Source: Oscillospiraceae bacterium
GTDB lineage: Bacteria; Bacillota; Clostridia; Oscillospirales; Ruminococcaceae
Reading direction: 5' to 3'
Length of the DNA: 64,000 nt
Assembly (NCBI GenBank): GCA_009784625.1
Contig: WRBI01000003.1
Location: forward strand, 1 to 64,000
Positions 46,511 to 58,728 of this stretch are shown piece by piece. Below the pieces are notes generated by a model. The model searched no databases, was not told the DNA's origin, and worked only from the letters and a program-made list of their open reading frames with translations. The position numbers and the translations under genes were made by a program. Each line of letters opens with the position of its first letter. The stretch's first letter is position 1.

Positions 46511-47269
46511 ATGCTTGTGATTCGCGTTGCGATTTGTGATGACGATGTCAAGGTCGTTGAAGATATATATAAGTTCCTCAGATATCAAAGTGTGCGGATT
46601 GAAATTCTGACTTATCTTTCCGGCCAGGATTTCCTGCGCGACATTGACCGGGGGGAGGTATTTGACATTGGGTTCATCGACATACAAATGAGCGGGCTAA
46701 ACGGGGTTGAAGTGGGCGCGATTTTAAGAGATAAACCGGATGGAGATGATATGATTTTGATCTATATTTCAAGCCACGAAGTATATTACAGGGCGCTTGC
46801 AAACATTGGCAGCTTTCGGTTCATCAAGAAACCGATTGAGAAACCCGATCTCGACGATGTGTTTAATCGGGCGCTCAGACAGGCGCTCAAGCGAAAGCCG
46901 ATGCAAAGGTCTTCGATCTTTTTCAGGTACAGGGTCGGGGTCGAAGACATAGCGGTCAACATAGACGACATCGCTTACTTAAAAAACGTAAAGCGGACGA
47001 TAGAGCTGCATATCTGGAACCACGCGACCCGGGTGATCCGCTGTGAGAACAAGTTTTACGCCAAGATCGAAGAGGCGCTTGAGCAGTTTCCGCGAAACCG
47101 GTTCGTCAGGTGTGAGCGCTCTTACATCGTCAACTTACAGTATGTCGCGAAGATAGAGGGTGCGGCCTTTCTTCTCAAGGACGTGGACAAAACGCGGGTG
47201 CCTATCAGCCGGCTTCTCAAAGAAGAGACGAAAAAAGTCTATTTTAAGCATGTGGAGGATATGGCATGA
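46511..47269 (+). CDS. agrA-like: LytTR-family response regulator (AgrA-like)
   Basis: Receiver (VAICDDDVKVVEDI, FDIGFIDIQMSGLNGVEV) and LytTR domain (VEDIAVNIDDIAYLKNVKRTIELHIW, FVRCERSYIVNLQYV). Confidence 0.9.
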   Translation: MLVIRVAICDDDVKVVEDIYKFLRYQSVRIEILTYLSGQDFLRDIDRGEVFDIGFIDIQMSGLNGVEVGAILRDKPDGDDMILIYISSHEVYYRALANIGSFRFIKKPIEKPDLDDVFNRALRQALKRKPMQRSSIFFRYRVGVEDIAVNIDDIAYLKNVKRTIELHIWNHATRVIRCENKFYAKIEEALEQFPRNRFVRCERSYIVNLQYVAKIEGAAFLLKDVDKTRVPISRLLKEETKKVYFKHVEDMA

Positions 47270-48648
47270 GCGCGGGCGCTTTCATCGCAAGCCAGTATTT
47301 AAACGGCGTGTTAACTATGATTTTGTACTACTATGGCCTTAGCAGCATATTTAAGCCTGCGATCAAAAGAAGATGGATTCTTTTAACATTCACAGCTTAT
47401 CTCGTAGTATCTAATCAAATGTTTTTTGCGTTTAACAATATGCTGGCAAATATATTTACGAATGTCTTTTTTCTAAGCATTATCTCTCTGATGATTATAG
47501 GTAGCACGGGTGTTAAGCTCGTATACGCGCTACTCATGTACATGGTATGTGTTATAGGTGAAGTGATCGCATTTGTATCATTAAGCTACTTACATTTCGC
47601 TTGGTATGGAGTCCCCATGTCTTTAGAAAACATAAATAATATTGTGATTGTGCGAACTACAACAAATATCATAAATGTATTATCTGTGATTTTGCTCGTT
47701 CACCTGTTTCGCAAACTTTTTTTAAAACGAACAGGCTATGTAATCAAATTCCCCACGACATATTCTGTTGCAATGACACTGATTATAGTCGGAGTTATTT
47801 TGATGCAGACCACATACTTTACGCTCTCAATAGACAATATACAGTCAAGCATCATATCAACAATACTTTCGCAGCTTGTGCTTTTAATGATAATATTTCT
47901 TACCATATGGATTTATAACACCACCTACAAACACATGGAGTCACTTGAAGAAAACAAACAAAAAGACATCATGCTTGAGCATTGGCAATCACAATACATC
48001 ACCGCAATGAATGCGCAAAAAGTGATTGTCGAGCTGAACCACAACCTGCAATATCACTTTTTGACGTTGTCGTGTTTTTTGAAAAAAGGGAAAACCGAAG
48101 AGGCTCAAAAGCATATAGAAAAAGAGCTTGGCGCGCTCGACGACATTACCAGCACTGGCAATATGCCGATCGACACCATGCTCAATTATTACAACCACCG
48201 GGCCAGGGACGAGCTTGAAATTGAGATCAAAACCGAGCTTGCGATTCCGCCGGATATGCACCTGGACGCCGTTCTGGTGGTGACCATACTGGGCAACGCG
48301 CTTGAAAACGCCATCGAGGCCTGTCACCACCTCCTCCTGCCCGAGCGCTACATCCATGTAAGGGCATCGATTACAGAAAGCCGCGCACTGTTTATTGTGA
48401 TCACCAACCCGTATGCGCTCACCCCGGTGGCCGATAAAAATGGCCGCCTGCTCACCAGTAAAGGGAGCAAACAGCTGCATGGGTTTGGGCTTTCCAGCAT
48501 TCAGGAGATGTTTCCCGAAGACGCCGGGCAGATTTATTATGAATATAAGGACAACGTTTTTCGGTTTATGTTTCTGAATTACAACATTTTGGATGAAAAG
48601 TCAACGAACGTTACATCAAACCTACCGAACGTTACAATCGTTAAGTAA
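47266..48648 (+). CDS. agrC-like: GHKL-domain sensor histidine kinase (AgrC-like)
   Basis: N-terminal TM segments, C-terminal GHKL (TILGNALENAIEAC, GSKQLHGFGLSSIQEM); 4-bp overlap with agrA-like gene. Confidence 0.9.
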   Translation: MSAGAFIASQYLNGVLTMILYYYGLSSIFKPAIKRRWILLTFTAYLVVSNQMFFAFNNMLANIFTNVFFLSIISLMIIGSTGVKLVYALLMYMVCVIGEVIAFVSLSYLHFAWYGVPMSLENINNIVIVRTTTNIINVLSVILLVHLFRKLFLKRTGYVIKFPTTYSVAMTLIIVGVILMQTTYFTLSIDNIQSSIISTILSQLVLLMIIFLTIWIYNTTYKHMESLEENKQKDIMLEHWQSQYITAMNAQKVIVELNHNLQYHFLTLSCFLKKGKTEEAQKHIEKELGALDDITSTGNMPIDTMLNYYNHRARDELEIEIKTELAIPPDMHLDAVLVVTILGNALENAIEACHHLLLPERYIHVRASITESRALFIVITNPYALTPVADKNGRLLTSKGSKQLHGFGLSSIQEMFPEDAGQIYYEYKDNVFRFMFLNYNILDEKSTNVTSNLPNVTIVK

Positions 48649-48682
48649 AATGCTTGTCAGCACAGGAAATCCATGCTAACAT
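48601..48682 (+). promoter_or_regulatory. LytTR-like direct-repeat operator plus sigma-A-like promoter upstream of agrD-like ORF
   Basis: CGAACGTTACA at 48605 and 48626 (21-bp spacing); TTGTCA (48654-48659)-N17-TAACAT (48677-48682). Confidence 0.6.
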
Positions 48683-48724
48683 TGCTTTACAGTAAATATA
48701 TAGATTTGTGTGAGGTGTTTGTTT

Positions 48725-48871
48725 ATGAGACAACATATCATGAGTTTTGCTATGAGATGGATGGGTTGCATCGCTATGTTTGGCGCGGTATTAATTGCAA
48801 ACCGTAGCTGTCACGCAATTGTTCATCAAGAAGAAGAACCTGAGACTGTACAAAAGTTACGTAAATTTTAA
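48725..48871 (+). CDS. agrD-like: Cyclic-lactone autoinducer precursor peptide (AgrD-like); absent from the supplied ORF track
   Basis: ATG 48725 to TAA 48871: MRQHIMSFAMRWMGCIAMFGAVLIANRSCHAIVHQEEEPETVQKLRKF*. Hydrophobic leader, single core Cys, five-residue CHAIV, acidic/Pro tail; between agrC-like and agrB-like genes. Confidence 0.85.
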   Translation: MRQHIMSFAMRWMGCIAMFGAVLIANRSCHAIVHQEEEPETVQKLRKF

Positions 48872-48883
48872 GGAGTGTCTGTT

Positions 48884-48987
48884 ATGAGACAACGTGGCGC
48901 GGGTCGGTGCAATTCTGACAGCGAATCGCGTGTGTGTTATAATTGTACACCAAAAGGTAGAAACCTGAGACTGTACCCAAGTTTTAG
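48884..48987 (+). pseudogene. Degraded second AgrD-like gene
   Basis: With two frame corrections it reads ATGAGACAAC...GAILTANRVCVIIVHQKVE/PETVPKF*, parallel to copy 1 GAVLIANRSCHAIVHQEEEPETVQKLRKF*. Confidence 0.75.
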
Positions 48988-49020
48988 GCGGGCAATATTT
49001 TTCGATGTTTTAGGCCACCA

Positions 49021-49104
49021 ATCGACGAACGTTACATCAAACCTACCGAACATTACAATCGTTGGGTAAAACGCTTGCCAACCCCAAGGGGTTTGTGTTA
49101 GCAT
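49021..49104 (+). promoter_or_regulatory. Second copy of the operator/promoter cassette, upstream of agrB-like gene
   Basis: GACGAACGTTACATCAAACCTACCGAACATTACAATCGTT repeats 48603-48642 with few changes; TTGCCA (49075-49080) then TTAGCAT. Confidence 0.6.
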
Positions 49105-49132: not shown

Positions 49133-49717
49133 GTGCGAGTGACACAGCAACTGGCTAACCGGGTCGCCGACTGGCTGATGCGCAGTGACGCAAACCAAGA
49201 AGCGCGAGAGGTGTACGTCTACGGCTTAGACAAGCTGTTTTCTACGCTTATAAACTTCGCGTTTGTGGTTGGGCTGGGGCTTCTGATCGGGGTTGCATTG
49301 CCGGCTATCACCTTCTTTGCGGGGTATTTTTCCTTGCGTACATACGCCGGTGGCTACCACGCGGACACACCGCGAAAGTGCTTTTTTATCAGCACTGCGA
49401 TGGTCATCCCCATTTTGTTTTTGATCCGCTTTTATCAGGTTTGGCTGGACGCGGCGGTGTTTTACACCGCTCTGGCCTGCTGTACCCTGATTCTGGTACT
49501 GTTCGTACCGGTAGGCACAAAAAACAAAATGCCGGATGCCTTAGAAAAGGTTGTCTACCGTCGCCGGTCTCTGGTAACCTTGGCGGTGCTGTTGGCGGGG
49601 TCAACAGTGCTGTTTGCGCTGTCTTTATACAGCTACGCAGCAGCGGTTCTGTTGGCGATCACACTTACAACAGCGGTTGTCGTCGCAGGAAAGATCAAGC
49701 TCCTCCAGTCGCGGTAA
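49133..49717 (+). CDS. agrB-like: Accessory gene regulator B-like (AgrB) peptide-processing membrane protein
   Basis: FFAGYFSLRTYAGGYHADTPRKCFFIS contains the AgrB His/Cys motif; multiple TM segments. Confidence 0.9.
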   Translation: MRVTQQLANRVADWLMRSDANQEAREVYVYGLDKLFSTLINFAFVVGLGLLIGVALPAITFFAGYFSLRTYAGGYHADTPRKCFFISTAMVIPILFLIRFYQVWLDAAVFYTALACCTLILVLFVPVGTKNKMPDALEKVVYRRRSLVTLAVLLAGSTVLFALSLYSYAAAVLLAITLTTAVVVAGKIKLLQSR

Positions 49718-49899: not shown

Positions 49900-52053
49900 T
49901 TACCGGAGAAGCTGGAGAACGCCCTGCGGGAGCTGGTTGGCTTGCGCGAGCATTGCTTGGGCAGCTTGAGTGAGGATGTTGTTCTGGGTGAACTGCATCA
50001 TCTCGGCGGCCATGTCAACGTCGCGGATTGTGCTCTCGGCGGCGGTCAGGTTTTCTCTGGCCACACCGAGGGAGTTCATGGTGGACTCAAGGCGGTTCTG
50101 CATGGCACCGAGCTGTGCGCGCTGGCTGGATACTTGATCCAGGGCGGCGTCCAGAACATCGATGGATGCGTTTGCGCCCTCGCGGGTGAGGATGGAGATG
50201 CCGGGGTTTTCTTCGTCAACGCGTTGTCTTTCACCATCTTCGTTGATAAAGTGGGAGTTGGCCATCTGGCGGACAGTCCATGCGATACCTGCTGCGTCAA
50301 CAAAGCCGAGTGAGCCGGCATTCATGTTGCGTACAGAAAGGCTGGCGCGTTGGTCTTGGCCGCCGTTTGCGCCGATCTGGAAGATCAGGGCGCTTGACAC
50401 GTCGTCGCGAGCGGCAACGCGGGCTGTGCCGACTGCAAATTCGTGGCCTTGTGCATCGTTGATCAGGGCGATGTGTGAGATAACACCGTTGGTCAATGTG
50501 CCGTTAGCGAATTCCATGGTGGCAACTGCATTGCCGGCATTGTCGCGGAAAGTAACGCCAACATCATCGCGGTAAGTATCAAAGGTCATGCCTTCCGGGC
50601 CGGAGTGAATAACGCCGGCGTCGCGCAGAAGCTGCTCAAGAGCCGCAGCGTTGTCGGCGGTGATGGGCATATCCAAGATAGCACCTTCAAGGGCGGTGAT
50701 GAAAGTAGCGTTTACATCACTGGAGTTTGTTGCGGCTGGCGGGGGTGTTCTGGTAACAAATGCGATGTCGTTAAGAGCCGCGAACAGAGCCACTGCATCT
50801 TCACGGTTAGCCGCTACACCAAGGTCTTGGATAATATCAGACAGTGCATTCCCAACGGCAGCCACGTCAGCCAAGTCGGTTGCCAAACGGGCAGGGTTAC
50901 CGTGCGGATCACGCACATTGTGCTCAGCGAGGACTTGATTAATCAAGGTCGCGGCGGTGGCGGCTTGCAACAAGTCATCATTAGCGGTAGCGCCATCCCA
51001 TTGGCCATCGACGGCGAGCGTTGCGCCCGACATCCAGTTTAAGCTGTTCACTGCGTTTTGCATTGCAGTCCGTGTTGCGGCATCTGCATTGTTTGCATTT
51101 GCATGAGTAAAAGCAGCCAAGAATGCATTGAGGTCGGCATCGGTGGTGCCCGCCAGAACAATGGCAGTTCCGTCAGGATTAACCAGATCGCCAAAATCTG
51201 CCAGAACTCTGGCCAACTCTGCTTGCGCGTGTGCCGTCAACAGTGCCGCCGCAGGAGCTGCTACAGTCGCAGTCTCGGCGCTGAGGTCAACTCTTGTACC
51301 GTCAGCCAAGTTGGTGCCAAGCAATGCGTTGATTGCGGCGGCCAGCTCGTTTGCAGCATCTACACCACCAGCCATGTTGCCGGCTGCGGCAGTAAACTCA
51401 ATGTCTCTTGCCATCTCAATGGCTTGTTCGCCAACAAAGGTAACGTCGCCGATTTGAAGCGAGATCACATTGCGGCTGACTGTCTCGCCTGTGCGCGGGT
51501 CGGTGCCGTTCATTTCTGTCACAGTGACTCTGGCGTTCAGGTCGGTCATACCGGCCAGCGCGCCCTCTACCAGCCGCAGGGTGCTCAGGTTTAGGCCAAT
51601 CACGTTGGTGTTGTCGCCAACCGCACGGTTACCGAACGAGCCGTCGATCAGATTAATGCCGTTGTAGTGGGTGCTGCTGGCGATTCTGTCCATCTCGTCA
51701 ATCAGCGCAACTACTTCGTGGTGAATCTGTTGGCGGTCGCCCTCGCCGAAAGTGGCGTTCGAGCTCATAACAGCCAGCTCACGAATTCTTTGCAGAATGT
51801 TTTGGGTCTCTTGCAGGCCGCCCTCAGCGGTTTGAATCAGGTTGATGCCCTGGCTTGTGTTCTGCTCAGCCATTGCAAGACCGCGGATCTGGCCGCGCAT
51901 ACGCTCAGAGATCGCAAGGCCGGCTGCGTCGTCCGCCGCACGGTTAATCCGGAAGCCGGAGCTCAAACGCTCAAGGTTGCGGGCAAGACCGCTGTTGTTG
52001 ATCTGAAGATTTCTGTGGCTGTTTAATGCTGGGATATTATTTTGTACTACCAT
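49900..52053 (-). CDS. Flagellin, 717 aa, with large variable central domain
   Basis: N-terminal NNIPALNSHRNLQINNSGLARNLERLSSGFRINRAADDAAGLAISERMRGQIRG and C-terminal LGAMQNRLESTMNSLGVARENLTAAESTIRDVDMAAEMMQFTQNNILTQAAQAMLAQANQLPQGVLQLLR. Confidence 0.95.
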   Translation of the reverse strand: MVVQNNIPALNSHRNLQINNSGLARNLERLSSGFRINRAADDAAGLAISERMRGQIRGLAMAEQNTSQGINLIQTAEGGLQETQNILQRIRELAVMSSNATFGEGDRQQIHHEVVALIDEMDRIASSTHYNGINLIDGSFGNRAVGDNTNVIGLNLSTLRLVEGALAGMTDLNARVTVTEMNGTDPRTGETVSRNVISLQIGDVTFVGEQAIEMARDIEFTAAAGNMAGGVDAANELAAAINALLGTNLADGTRVDLSAETATVAAPAAALLTAHAQAELARVLADFGDLVNPDGTAIVLAGTTDADLNAFLAAFTHANANNADAATRTAMQNAVNSLNWMSGATLAVDGQWDGATANDDLLQAATAATLINQVLAEHNVRDPHGNPARLATDLADVAAVGNALSDIIQDLGVAANREDAVALFAALNDIAFVTRTPPPAATNSSDVNATFITALEGAILDMPITADNAAALEQLLRDAGVIHSGPEGMTFDTYRDDVGVTFRDNAGNAVATMEFANGTLTNGVISHIALINDAQGHEFAVGTARVAARDDVSSALIFQIGANGGQDQRASLSVRNMNAGSLGFVDAAGIAWTVRQMANSHFINEDGERQRVDEENPGISILTREGANASIDVLDAALDQVSSQRAQLGAMQNRLESTMNSLGVARENLTAAESTIRDVDMAAEMMQFTQNNILTQAAQAMLAQANQLPQGVLQLLR

Positions 52054-53817: not shown

Positions 53818-56800
53818 TTAGCTGCCGGGATAGGCCGTACTGAACATCCCCCTGCCGGAATTCGCGTTCTCGCCGGTGTCGCCGTGAATCATGTACACGG
53901 TGTCCAGTACGGCGTTGCTCTCAAATGTCTGGCGTACCCTGAAAGTGTAGACAATCATCTGCTGCGCCTGTCGGCGGTTCTCAAATGAGATGTAAAGATT
54001 TTGCATTTCCTGCCGGGTATTAAATCTTATGTTTTGGTCGCGCGCAATCTCATACCGCGTATCGTGCCCGTAAAGCCGGGTGTTTGAGGGGATCCAGGCG
54101 CTTATGTCGTACTGGCCGAGCGGTGCGTCCTCGCTCAAAGAGATGGTCAGTGTGACTTCAAATGTCTGATCATCCAGCGGGCTGATCGATTGCTCAATCC
54201 GCATGTTTTCGGACTGCTCAAGCCCAAGCTCGGCCGGTGAGCCGATGTAATAGATTGACGCGCGAATCCCCTCAGGCAGATAGTCGATCTCAAAGCTCTC
54301 AAGCTCACTGCGGGAAAGGACAATGGTAGACATAAACCGGGAGGGCCGGTCCGACCAATAGCGCCCGAGGTCGGGCACACCGAACTCGATGCTGTGTTGA
54401 GTGCCGTTGATCGAATAGAGCAGGGTGGAGGTCTCCACCGCCCGGTCAAAGTTGCGGACATAGATCATCGCTTCGTACAAGGTGTGGAATCGCCAGGGCC
54501 TGTTGCCAAAAAAGAGGGCGATCTCGTCGGCGTCCTCATGCCCAAGCAGGGTAGCGGCAACCCAAACGGCGGCGGTGAGCGCGTTGTCTTCGATGATAAG
54601 TCGGGAGAAATGTCGGTTGTAAAGTTCGAGCGCGGCTTCAGTTTCCCCGATCACGGCCAGGGCGGCGATATAGTAGGCGCGAACTTCGGGGTCACGGGCG
54701 TGTTCGGCTTCGCGGAGCAGAAACTCGCCGGTCATGCTTTCATCACCCAGATACGCAAGCCCCAAACGGGCGGCGGCGGTGGCCATCGGGTCCAGCCCGC
54801 TGGCCAGCATACCGTCAAAGTAGGCGGCCATTGCGCGGCGATCAAACTGGTCGTCCTGGGCGGCAAGCAGCACAAAGGTGGTAATCCGCACATCCGAGTT
54901 CCCGCCCAGGCTGGCGCCGATCCCGCCGTTTGCGTTTTGCATATCGGCGATGTTTTCATCTGTCCGGGCGATGTAAGAGGGCACAACCAGCCCGGGCAAA
55001 GAGTCGCGCAAAGCGTGTTTGGCCACCACCCGGCTCATCCGCTGCTTTGTGATCATACAGTAATGGCCCATCAGTGAGTTGATGCTGGTGATAAACGGCT
55101 GGGCCGACTGGTCATAGAACGTGATGGTTACCGGGAAACGTGAGGCGTCCACCTCAATCGGCTGAGAAAGGTCAAGCGGGCGGCTCACAACCAGCTCAAG
55201 GTTGCTGTGAATAACCGATATCGGCAGTTCAACCGCGTCGGTATAATCGCCATACCGTGCGCGGAAGACGGCGGTGTACATCCCGGAGGGTAGCTGGCCA
55301 AAGTTCAATTGGTGGGATGTGTACGCACTGCCTGTAAAAATATAGCTTTCGGAAAACTCATCCCCGGTGATTGTGACGCTGAAATCGACTTCACTTTCCG
55401 GGCTTAACACAATGCCCTGGCCCTGCACCAGCAGTGCGATGTCGTCACCTTCGATATACTTTGTGTTCACAACCGGCCGGACAAAGAAAGGCAGGGTCGA
55501 GATGATGTTGTCCCGGCTTTGGCCGCCCATCCGGTTATTGCCCACCGCGACCGAAGTAATCCGCCAGGATGTGTTGTTGTCGGGCAGCTCAAATGAAAGG
55601 TGGGCGTACCCCGACGCATTGGTCGTTGCGGGCAGAAAAGCGGCGGTATCCCTGAAGTTGGAGCGCAGGCTGTCGTCGGTAAAGCTTAAGTCGCGGTTTC
55701 CGGTTTTGTTGGCGTCCTGATACCGGCCGCGGGTTTCGCGCCGGTGTGTGGTGAAGTATTGCCTTACCTGGTTGTTTGTACCCCGAATGTCGTGATAAAG
55801 GTCTGACAGCAGGGAGATATGCTGCTCACTCACCGCGAACACGGCCTCATCCACCACGGCTACCGCAATGCTGGCCGGCCGGCCGTTGCCATTCGGGTCA
55901 GTTGTTCGAACGGTAAGGTGAACGGTGTCGCCCGGTGAATACATTTCCCTGTCCGGGGTTACTTCGACGTTCAGGGTCATGCTTTGGTGAGTGGCGTTAA
56001 CAAAGATGCGGCCAAGCGGGTGGACTTCCCGCCCGTCAAAATAGACAGCCACCAAAAAGATATTCGGGCCGTGCGCCATATCGTACCGGAAGTCAAAAGT
56101 ACTGCCGTGTACAAGGCGGTGTTCAAACACGCCATCCTGTACAATCGAATAGAGGATCCGCCCGCCGGACGCCGCCGGCTGGCTGTCATGTAAAACATTA
56201 AAGCGGATCACCTCGCCCACATTCATCTGGATAAAGTTTAGGTGGCCGAAATGGGCGGGGATATCCGCCCCCTGTGTGATGTTGCGGGCAGCCAGCGAAT
56301 AGCCGTATATAACGGGGTCGTCTTCGTCTATCCCCCAATCTTCCCGGAAGAGGGAGGAGTTGGGGTAATACCCCCAGCCGATGCGGCTGTTGCCCTGCGT
56401 GTCGTTTGCGGTGATGACCGCGTGGGCAAAGGCGCTGTGGCTAAAATCTATGCCGACACGCCCGGTGTAAATGATGTCATTGATGGTCACCACGCCGTCT
56501 TGGGTATTGACCAAAAGCTGTTGTATCCCGCGCGTTGATGTTAGCCGGATATCAATGTCGGGGTTGGCAGCAACGATATGCTGATAAGAGTAATCCGGGT
56601 CAAACAGCCACTGCCGCCAGTGGGCGGGGTTGTGGCGGACACGCTCGCCGTCCAGGCCTAAAAAGTCCCAGCTCAGGTCGATCCTTATATCCTGTATATC
56701 GACCGGCCGGCCGCGGGCAATCTCAAGCATCCGGTCGTTGCCCAGCCGCCAAAGGGAAAACTCGTTGTCCGTTGCTTCTTCGAGCAGGGCCTCAGACGCA

Positions 56801-58728
56801 AAGTCGATCATAAAGGTCTCGATGGTCAGCGAGATGTTGTCGCCTTCTTCGTTGCGCTGGGTAAACGCGTTGATCAGAATGTCGGAGGGGAAGACGAAGT
56901 AACTGCCCATATGGGTAATGTCTTCACCGTCGCCGGCCACACGGATCCGGTAGCTGTTGGTGGTCAGTGTGCCGTGTACGGTGGTTCCGCCGCCTACCCA
57001 AGCCGGGAAAGAAAATGTGGCGTTGCCCTCGGCGTCGGTCAGCACTTCGCCTAGTTCAGCCCACTCACGGGTGGACGGGTTGAAGTAAGCCACCTCGACC
57101 GGCGAGTTGGGCAGCGGGGTGCCGTCGAAAAAGGCAATGTGGGCGGTGACCTGAACAGTGTCGGTGGGTGCGTGAAAGGCGTCTCTGACCTCTGAGCTGA
57201 TTGTGTAGGCGGGCTTGTGAAAGTCGCGGACAGAGAAGTACCTGACCTCAAACACAACCTGCCTGTCTTCGGTTTCTTCTTCATCCTCGTCACCATCGCT
57301 GGGCGATGCCGGAAAGTGCAGGGAGGCCTGCAAGCTGTACTGTGCGCTTCTGATTTGATCGATCTCAAACTCCCCGCTGAACACGCCGCCCGGGCCGATG
57401 GGCAGATCTTGTTCGATATTCAGGCCGCCCGCGTCAAAAGTAACCCGCACCGTTTCGGGCATAGGCAGCTCGTTCGTGCGAAAAGGCTCTACAATCCCCC
57501 AAAAGCTTATGGTATCCTGCGGCCGGTAGATGGTGCGGTCTAGGAATAGGTAAGAGTAATAGCGCTCGCGAATCCCGTGGTTAAACTGCGCGACGCCGTT
57601 GTCGAAATAAACCATCTCGCCGCTTTGGTTGTAAATGCGAAAGGCGCTCTCGTCGTCCTCAATATCCCGGCTGAAAAAAGCCATGCCATTTGCGTCGGTT
57701 ATGCCGGCGGACTCTTCATCCTCCCCGAAATGTATCCGAAGCCCGGGGATAGGGCCGCCGGTTTGGGAGGAGTTAACCCAGACCAGGGTGTCCCGAACTG
57801 TTGTCTGCATATACACCGAAAGCGGGGTGACCAGGTAACTCGCGCGGTGGTGGCTTTCTTCGCCGGTATGCGGGTCGGTGAATGTGACCGCCAGAATATA
57901 AGCGCCGTTGCCAAAGTGAGGGATAGAAAAATCGTTTTCACCGGTTTCAATTAAGAAGACGTTTGCGTCTATCCGCTCAAGCAGGGTAAGCGGGGCTTCG
58001 TACTCCAGAAAGATATGGCCTTGCTCCGAAAGGCGCCCGATGCTGGGCATCCGGTAAGTCTCAACCGCCACCGGGACCCGTTCTTCCAGATTTTGCGCTT
58101 CAAAATAAAGTGAGAAGTTCAGGCAGTCGTTTAAAATAAAGCTCTGGCCGCTTCCCCAATAGCGAATGGCGGGCAGGTCTTCTTCCCGCGGCTGCGGCGT
58201 GGGGCGGGGCGTGGGGGTAGGGGCAGGGGTAGGCGGGGGGCTTAAAAGAAAGCGCAGGGTTTGCCGGGAATCAAAAGACCCGCCAAGCTGGCTTATGTAA
58301 TCAGCGCCGATTTCAATCCTGGCCGAGCCGCCGATATCCTGCCAACGGCTGACCGGACGGACAATGATGGTGTATTCGCCTGGCTGATTAAGTGTATAGT
58401 CCACACTTGGGCGAATGGTTAAGGCCTGTTCAAGAGATTCAATATCAACCGGCTGGGAAAAAACCAGGGTAACCGGTGTGCGCGGGCCGACGGCGACGTC
58501 TGTGGCAATGTGCACGGTCAACGGCTCAAGCTCTAAAGGCGGCGGGGCAGCGGCCGGTTCTTCTACACTGCCCAACTGCGCGATAAAAAGCAGAAGGATC
58601 GCCGCCAAGCCCGCGAAAACAATCAGCCGGCTAAGCCGCCGGCCGCCCCCGCCGGTTATGGACGCAAGAATGTCTTTCAGCTCACCCAAAAACTTTTCTT
58701 TAAAACCCGAAGATTTCTCGCTGGACAT
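53818..58728 (-). CDS. Alpha-2-macroglobulin family protein (membrane-anchored)
   Basis: 1636 aa; N-terminal TM segment, Pro/Thr linker, MG-type domains, FVRPVVNTKYIEGDDI and TED-like alpha-helical region (ADMQNANGGIGASLGGNSDVRITTFVLLA). Confidence 0.85.
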   Translation of the reverse strand: MSSEKSSGFKEKFLGELKDILASITGGGGRRLSRLIVFAGLAAILLLFIAQLGSVEEPAAAPPPLELEPLTVHIATDVAVGPRTPVTLVFSQPVDIESLEQALTIRPSVDYTLNQPGEYTIIVRPVSRWQDIGGSARIEIGADYISQLGGSFDSRQTLRFLLSPPPTPAPTPTPRPTPQPREEDLPAIRYWGSGQSFILNDCLNFSLYFEAQNLEERVPVAVETYRMPSIGRLSEQGHIFLEYEAPLTLLERIDANVFLIETGENDFSIPHFGNGAYILAVTFTDPHTGEESHHRASYLVTPLSVYMQTTVRDTLVWVNSSQTGGPIPGLRIHFGEDEESAGITDANGMAFFSRDIEDDESAFRIYNQSGEMVYFDNGVAQFNHGIRERYYSYLFLDRTIYRPQDTISFWGIVEPFRTNELPMPETVRVTFDAGGLNIEQDLPIGPGGVFSGEFEIDQIRSAQYSLQASLHFPASPSDGDEDEEETEDRQVVFEVRYFSVRDFHKPAYTISSEVRDAFHAPTDTVQVTAHIAFFDGTPLPNSPVEVAYFNPSTREWAELGEVLTDAEGNATFSFPAWVGGGTTVHGTLTTNSYRIRVAGDGEDITHMGSYFVFPSDILINAFTQRNEEGDNISLTIETFMIDFASEALLEEATDNEFSLWRLGNDRMLEIARGRPVDIQDIRIDLSWDFLGLDGERVRHNPAHWRQWLFDPDYSYQHIVAANPDIDIRLTSTRGIQQLLVNTQDGVVTINDIIYTGRVGIDFSHSAFAHAVITANDTQGNSRIGWGYYPNSSLFREDWGIDEDDPVIYGYSLAARNITQGADIPAHFGHLNFIQMNVGEVIRFNVLHDSQPAASGGRILYSIVQDGVFEHRLVHGSTFDFRYDMAHGPNIFLVAVYFDGREVHPLGRIFVNATHQSMTLNVEVTPDREMYSPGDTVHLTVRTTDPNGNGRPASIAVAVVDEAVFAVSEQHISLLSDLYHDIRGTNNQVRQYFTTHRRETRGRYQDANKTGNRDLSFTDDSLRSNFRDTAAFLPATTNASGYAHLSFELPDNNTSWRITSVAVGNNRMGGQSRDNIISTLPFFVRPVVNTKYIEGDDIALLVQGQGIVLSPESEVDFSVTITGDEFSESYIFTGSAYTSHQLNFGQLPSGMYTAVFRARYGDYTDAVELPISVIHSNLELVVSRPLDLSQPIEVDASRFPVTITFYDQSAQPFITSINSLMGHYCMITKQRMSRVVAKHALRDSLPGLVVPSYIARTDENIADMQNANGGIGASLGGNSDVRITTFVLLAAQDDQFDRRAMAAYFDGMLASGLDPMATAAARLGLAYLGDESMTGEFLLREAEHARDPEVRAYYIAALAVIGETEAALELYNRHFSRLIIEDNALTAAVWVAATLLGHEDADEIALFFGNRPWRFHTLYEAMIYVRNFDRAVETSTLLYSINGTQHSIEFGVPDLGRYWSDRPSRFMSTIVLSRSELESFEIDYLPEGIRASIYYIGSPAELGLEQSENMRIEQSISPLDDQTFEVTLTISLSEDAPLGQYDISAWIPSNTRLYGHDTRYEIARDQNIRFNTRQEMQNLYISFENRRQAQQMIVYTFRVRQTFESNAVLDTVYMIHGDTGENANSGRGMFSTAYPGS

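Follow-up and report, generated by a model that had tools for sequence, protein, structure and literature searches.

Here we describe an agr locus in a 64,000-nt stretch of Oscillospiraceae DNA (the window), in which four genes lie on one strand in the order agrA-agrC-agrD-agrB (Table 1). The locus contains both an AgrC-type GHKL kinase and an AgrA-type LytTR regulator, and the gene matching PF04647 begins 267 nt downstream of agrD on the same strand. A broken second agrD sits directly downstream of the intact one, and each of agrD and agrB has its own putative operator and sigma-70-like promoter.

Table 1 Features of the agr locus and their positions in the window.
Feature	Position	Strand	Description
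agrA-type response regulator	46517..47269	+	Receiver PF00072, 48.0 bits; LytTR DNA-binding PF04397, 48.7 bits; both above cut-off
agrC-type sensor kinase	47266..48648	+	Hydrophobic N-terminal half; GHKL ATPase PF14501 HATPase_c_5, 58.1 bits
Putative AgrA/LytTR operator 1	48605..48637	+	CGAACGTTAC twice, 21 nt start to start, within the 3' end of the kinase gene
Sigma-70-like promoter before agrD	48654..48682	+	TTGTCA-17-TAACAT, consensus scan
agrD	48725..48871	+	48-aa precursor; leader 1-28, predicted ring C29-H-A-I-V33, tail HQEEEPETVQKLRKF 34-48
agrD relic (second copy)	48884..49000	+	Start codon, core ARVGAILTANRVCVIIVHQKVET (48891-48965) and tail KPETVPKF in three separate frames
Putative operator 2 before agrB	49026..49058	+	CGAACGTTAC / CGAACATTAC, 21-nt spacing
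Sigma-70-like promoter before agrB	49075..49104	+	TTGCCA-18-TAGCAT, consensus scan
agrB membrane peptidase	49139..49717	+	GTG start; PF04647, 115.9 bits (cut-off 23); dyad H74/C81

The agrD ORF runs from an ATG to a TAA and translates as MRQHIMSFAMRWMGCIAMFGAVLIANRSCHAIVHQEEEPETVQKLRKF. A longer alternative would start at a GTG at 48710. We favor the ATG since a GAGGTG Shine-Dalgarno-like stretch is correctly spaced from it, and since the resulting length of 48 aa and the position of Cys29 are both identical to those of a paralogue in the same genome. AgrD precursors are 40-50 aa long with a leader, a central Cys/Ser core, and a charged C-terminal tail, and the ORF shows this layout throughout. 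We built a profile from 15 AgrDs encoded in other genomes within the family and order, leaving out all members from its own genome. With this profile agrD scored 36.1 bits and came first when the window was read in six frames (1,736 segments), while the maximum across 20 simulated random windows was 11.7 bits. Nearly all of the 15 external AgrDs adjoin AgrB relatives. The filter used to collect them admitted an ORF only if it had a Cys and an acidic tail with Pro in it; that every member of this set has the Cys is thus partly built in. AgrD-like ORFs with plainly different spacing (e.g. L028, L033) were excluded. The sequence-only reading had proposed an AgrD-like precursor of 48 residues missing from the annotation. 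The ORF is real, with its sequence exactly as given and its score well above chance, and its identity as AgrD is borne out by its place between the agrC/agrA-type pair and AgrB, by the profile score, by the paralogue, and by the anatomy common to the 15 external relatives. We found no orthologue of agrD in ten genomes of the same genus, and those genomes and about 90 other related ones yielded only distant AgrDs.

Against the NCBIfam AgrD family TIGR04223, agrD scored 17.4 bits (E 0.0037, profile positions 4-34 of 38), 1.6 bits short of the curated cut-off of 19. This sub-threshold score, together with its short length, makes the absence of agrD from the annotation plausible. Like the members of TIGR04223, the precursor has a hydrophobic leader, a Cys followed by four residues, HQ, an acidic, Pro-containing tail, and a KLRKF end; it differs in its lower score and in a ring that lacks the aromatic residues common in its relatives.

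The agrB product combines its high profile score with a catalytic His/Cys pair, H74 and C81, which lie seven residues apart and are invariant in an alignment of eight sequences. The closest AgrB outside this genome (L010, from an Oscillospiraceae MAG) is 51% identical, and it was left out because a run of N covers the kinase and agrD position there. A single-sequence AlphaFold model of AgrB had a pLDDT of 66, and it was discarded for its low confidence. The kinase carries an extra C-terminal tail, STNVTSNLPNVTIVK, that is missing in the paralogous kinase, as the operator repeats occupy the last kinase codons. Its putative phospho-acceptor motif (48030-48070) is NHNLQYHF, with Asn after the His, and the paralogous kinase has SHNLKYHF. 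Many kinases of the agrC type show HD after the putative phospho-His rather than HN; we counted this as a point against the Agr reading, and it applies equally to the paralogue. Beyond agrB, a 717-aa flagellin-like ORF (49900-52053, minus strand) converges on it; the operator repeat was not seen at this ORF. In C. difficile, flagellar genes are among those under agr2 control (PMC3754575). Farther on lies a 1636-aa ORF (53818-58728, minus strand) with an N-terminal membrane segment and, by eye, a likeness to alpha-2-macroglobulin-type proteins.

The putative operator upstream of agrD is part of a 59-nt block that recurs 421 nt downstream, 90% identical, in front of agrB, and each block is followed by a sigma-70-like promoter. 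At both promoters the direct repeats lie at about -57 and -78 from the presumed transcription start. The CGAACGTTAC repeats form a putative AgrA/LytTR operator. The exact pattern has no further copies genome-wide beyond these two sites. Two one-mismatch sites occur elsewhere (L054 and L053; G000:C47:20072-20099 and C25:10159-10186), both in promoter regions and alike in sharing ACGTTACATTAARACGACACTTCGTTAC and its flanks; one of them is upstream of the protease gene of a third agr locus described below. These regions are possibly LytTR regulator targets, and as matches to the agr operator they are near chance. We claim no regulon for the operator, as one to two one-mismatch matches are expected by chance on a rough estimate.

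In the relic, the start codon and MRQ share one reading frame, ARVGAILTANRVCVIIVHQKVET falls in another, and KPETVPKF in yet another. Two frameshifts and a deletion have broken this copy, most of its leader is gone, and CVIIV stands at the ring position. Its DNA similarity score to agrD was 44, compared with at most 29 in 1,000 shuffles, and with the same leave-own-genome-out profile it ranked second among the segments of the window at 15.5 bits. We rejected the idea that the relic still works as a gene through programmed frameshifting, because two shifts would be needed and most of the leader is missing. Neither the relic nor the doubled operator-promoter block had been noticed in the sequence-only reading.

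Three AgrB genes are present in the genome, and an AgrD-like ORF adjoins every one of them. The paralogous locus (G000:C2 1-8000, L041) is complete, with the same regulator-kinase-agrD-agrB order, and is followed by a large secreted-protein-like ORF. Its kinase is 42% and its AgrB 40% identical to those described here, and its AgrD, MKTKLKLLSIRLVSCFALLVTIGVANQACPFFMHQDEEPESVRKLRKF, is also 48 aa, aligns without gaps at 40% identity, and scores 39.4 bits with TIGR04223. Conversely, agrD and agrB are nearly contiguous in the paralogous locus, which has no second promoter block, no relic, and just one clear CGTTAC half-site. The core and tail of the paralogue read ACPFFM-HQDEEPESVRKLRKF, with the KLRKF end common to both precursors. 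Across the 15 codons of the tail, differences between the paralogues fall at 1 first, 1 second, and 10 third positions, which indicates that the tails are under protein-level selection. The predicted rings have diverged (CHAIV and CPFFM) while the tails are constrained, as is usual among Agr signals. The third system (G000:C47, L042 4262-8684) has a kinase and agrB, an AgrD, HEPKVPAKLRKD, with CTWIF as its ring, and no adjoining regulator. Upstream of it are an ORF for a secreted trypsin-like protease, recognized by eye, and a lipoprotein-like ORF. The genome also encodes two Rce1-like proteins of the CPBP family, to which MroQ belongs; nothing ties them to the agr locus.

The spacing Cys-X4-[HYN]-[QE] is constant in 18 of the 18 aligned AgrDs, with the Cys, Gln, and Pro conserved, and this constancy is valid for the HQ-type group rather than for every AgrD of the family. 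Five-membered rings are the commonest among autoinducing peptides (PMC10301443). Together these support the ring of five residues put forward by the sequence-only reading, and given the spacing and the AgrB His/Cys pair, a C-H-A-I-V thiolactone is the best prediction for the mature product. The exocyclic tail “NRS-” that had accompanied it is a guess, since the N-terminal cleavage site cannot be fixed from sequence and tail-less clostridial peptides exist, such as R5T0 in C. thermocellum (PMC5322536) and R6T0 in C. acetobutylicum (PMC10301443).

With agrD presumably expressed, AgrB would cut the precursor after Val33 using Cys81 and His74 and pass the acyl group on to the Cys29 thiol, closing the five-residue thiolactone. 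A second protease, distinct from AgrB, would strip the leader and release the peptide, which would retain at most a short tail. Once outside the cell, the peptide at high concentration may activate the kinase, which would phosphorylate the LytTR regulator. The regulator could then bind the 21-nt-spaced CGAACGTTAC repeats and raise transcription of agrD and agrB in a positive feedback loop.

We put at roughly 0.93 the probability that this ORF is an agrD whose product is processed into a cyclic autoinducing peptide within a standard Agr circuit. The gene is an ordinary addition to Agr quorum sensing, a known family. A chance ORF, or a small membrane peptide unrelated to Agr, has a vanishingly small probability: many short ORFs occur in the region and a Pfam search of this one gave no match, but the profile score is far beyond the random range, the ORF adjoins AgrB, and the paralogue has the same anatomy. 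In practice, the profile test and the paralogue have refuted this explanation. An agrD that is itself decaying in a system losing function is more credible but still improbable. The clearly broken copy directly downstream would fit such decay, as would the TIGR04223 score of the intact copy, which is below those of every other intact AgrD tested (38 to 53 bits), and the ring without aromatic residues. On the other hand, there is no break in the reading frame, and the ribosome-binding site, tail and AgrB dyad are intact, as are the kinase and the regulator; the tail codons show third-position bias, and the operator and promoter have been kept.

A variant that does not exclude a real agrD, and that we rate slightly above even odds, is a mature signal other than (NRS)CHAIV, whether tail-less, with a longer tail (e.g. 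IANRS-), or with another ring size. Leader cleavage sites vary, and the clostridial peptides cited above show that the tail may be absent altogether. For ring size, some AgrDs that adjoin AgrB in the family are spaced differently, L028 and L033 among them, but the aligned HQ-type relatives all hold four residues between the Cys and [HYN][QE], and the predominance of five-membered rings also argues for the ring as predicted.

The simplest history of the locus would begin with a tandem duplication that spanned the kinase end, the operator, the promoter, and agrD, after which one of the two agrD copies decayed. To arrive at the present order of agrD, relic, and second operator, one or more additional losses or rearrangements would have been required. 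A more specific and rather doubtful idea is that the locus is the fossil of a signal switch, in which duplication of agrD and its operator gave rise to CHAIV and CVIIV-like cores and one was then lost, its operator-promoter now driving agrB separately. If so, the precursor and its processing enzyme would be under two regulator-controlled promoters. We found no clear precedent for a tandem or duplicated agrD in the open-access literature, which is weak evidence given that scope. With an intact agrD, its broken tandem copy, and a doubled operator all in one place, the locus illustrates concretely how duplication and loss may give rise to new Agr signal types. CHAIV likely adds a new signal specificity to this widespread family, and the locus shows that curated cut-offs can miss an agrD even where the agr system around it is complete.

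Compared by gene order, the locus resembles C. difficile agr2 of strain R20291, which is arranged agrACDB (PMC3754575) and is likewise a complete system with its own receptor. The relic second agrD and the separate operator-promoter of agrB set the present locus apart from it. The S. aureus agr system (agrBDCA, with P2/P3) differs in gene order but has the same four components, including an AgrB dyad, His77/Cys84 (PMC10482373), with the same seven-residue gap as H74/C81. Its direct repeats also lie about 60 nt before the transcription start, and the AgrA sites near -60 (PMC4227749) are close to the position of the proximal half-site here, at about -57.
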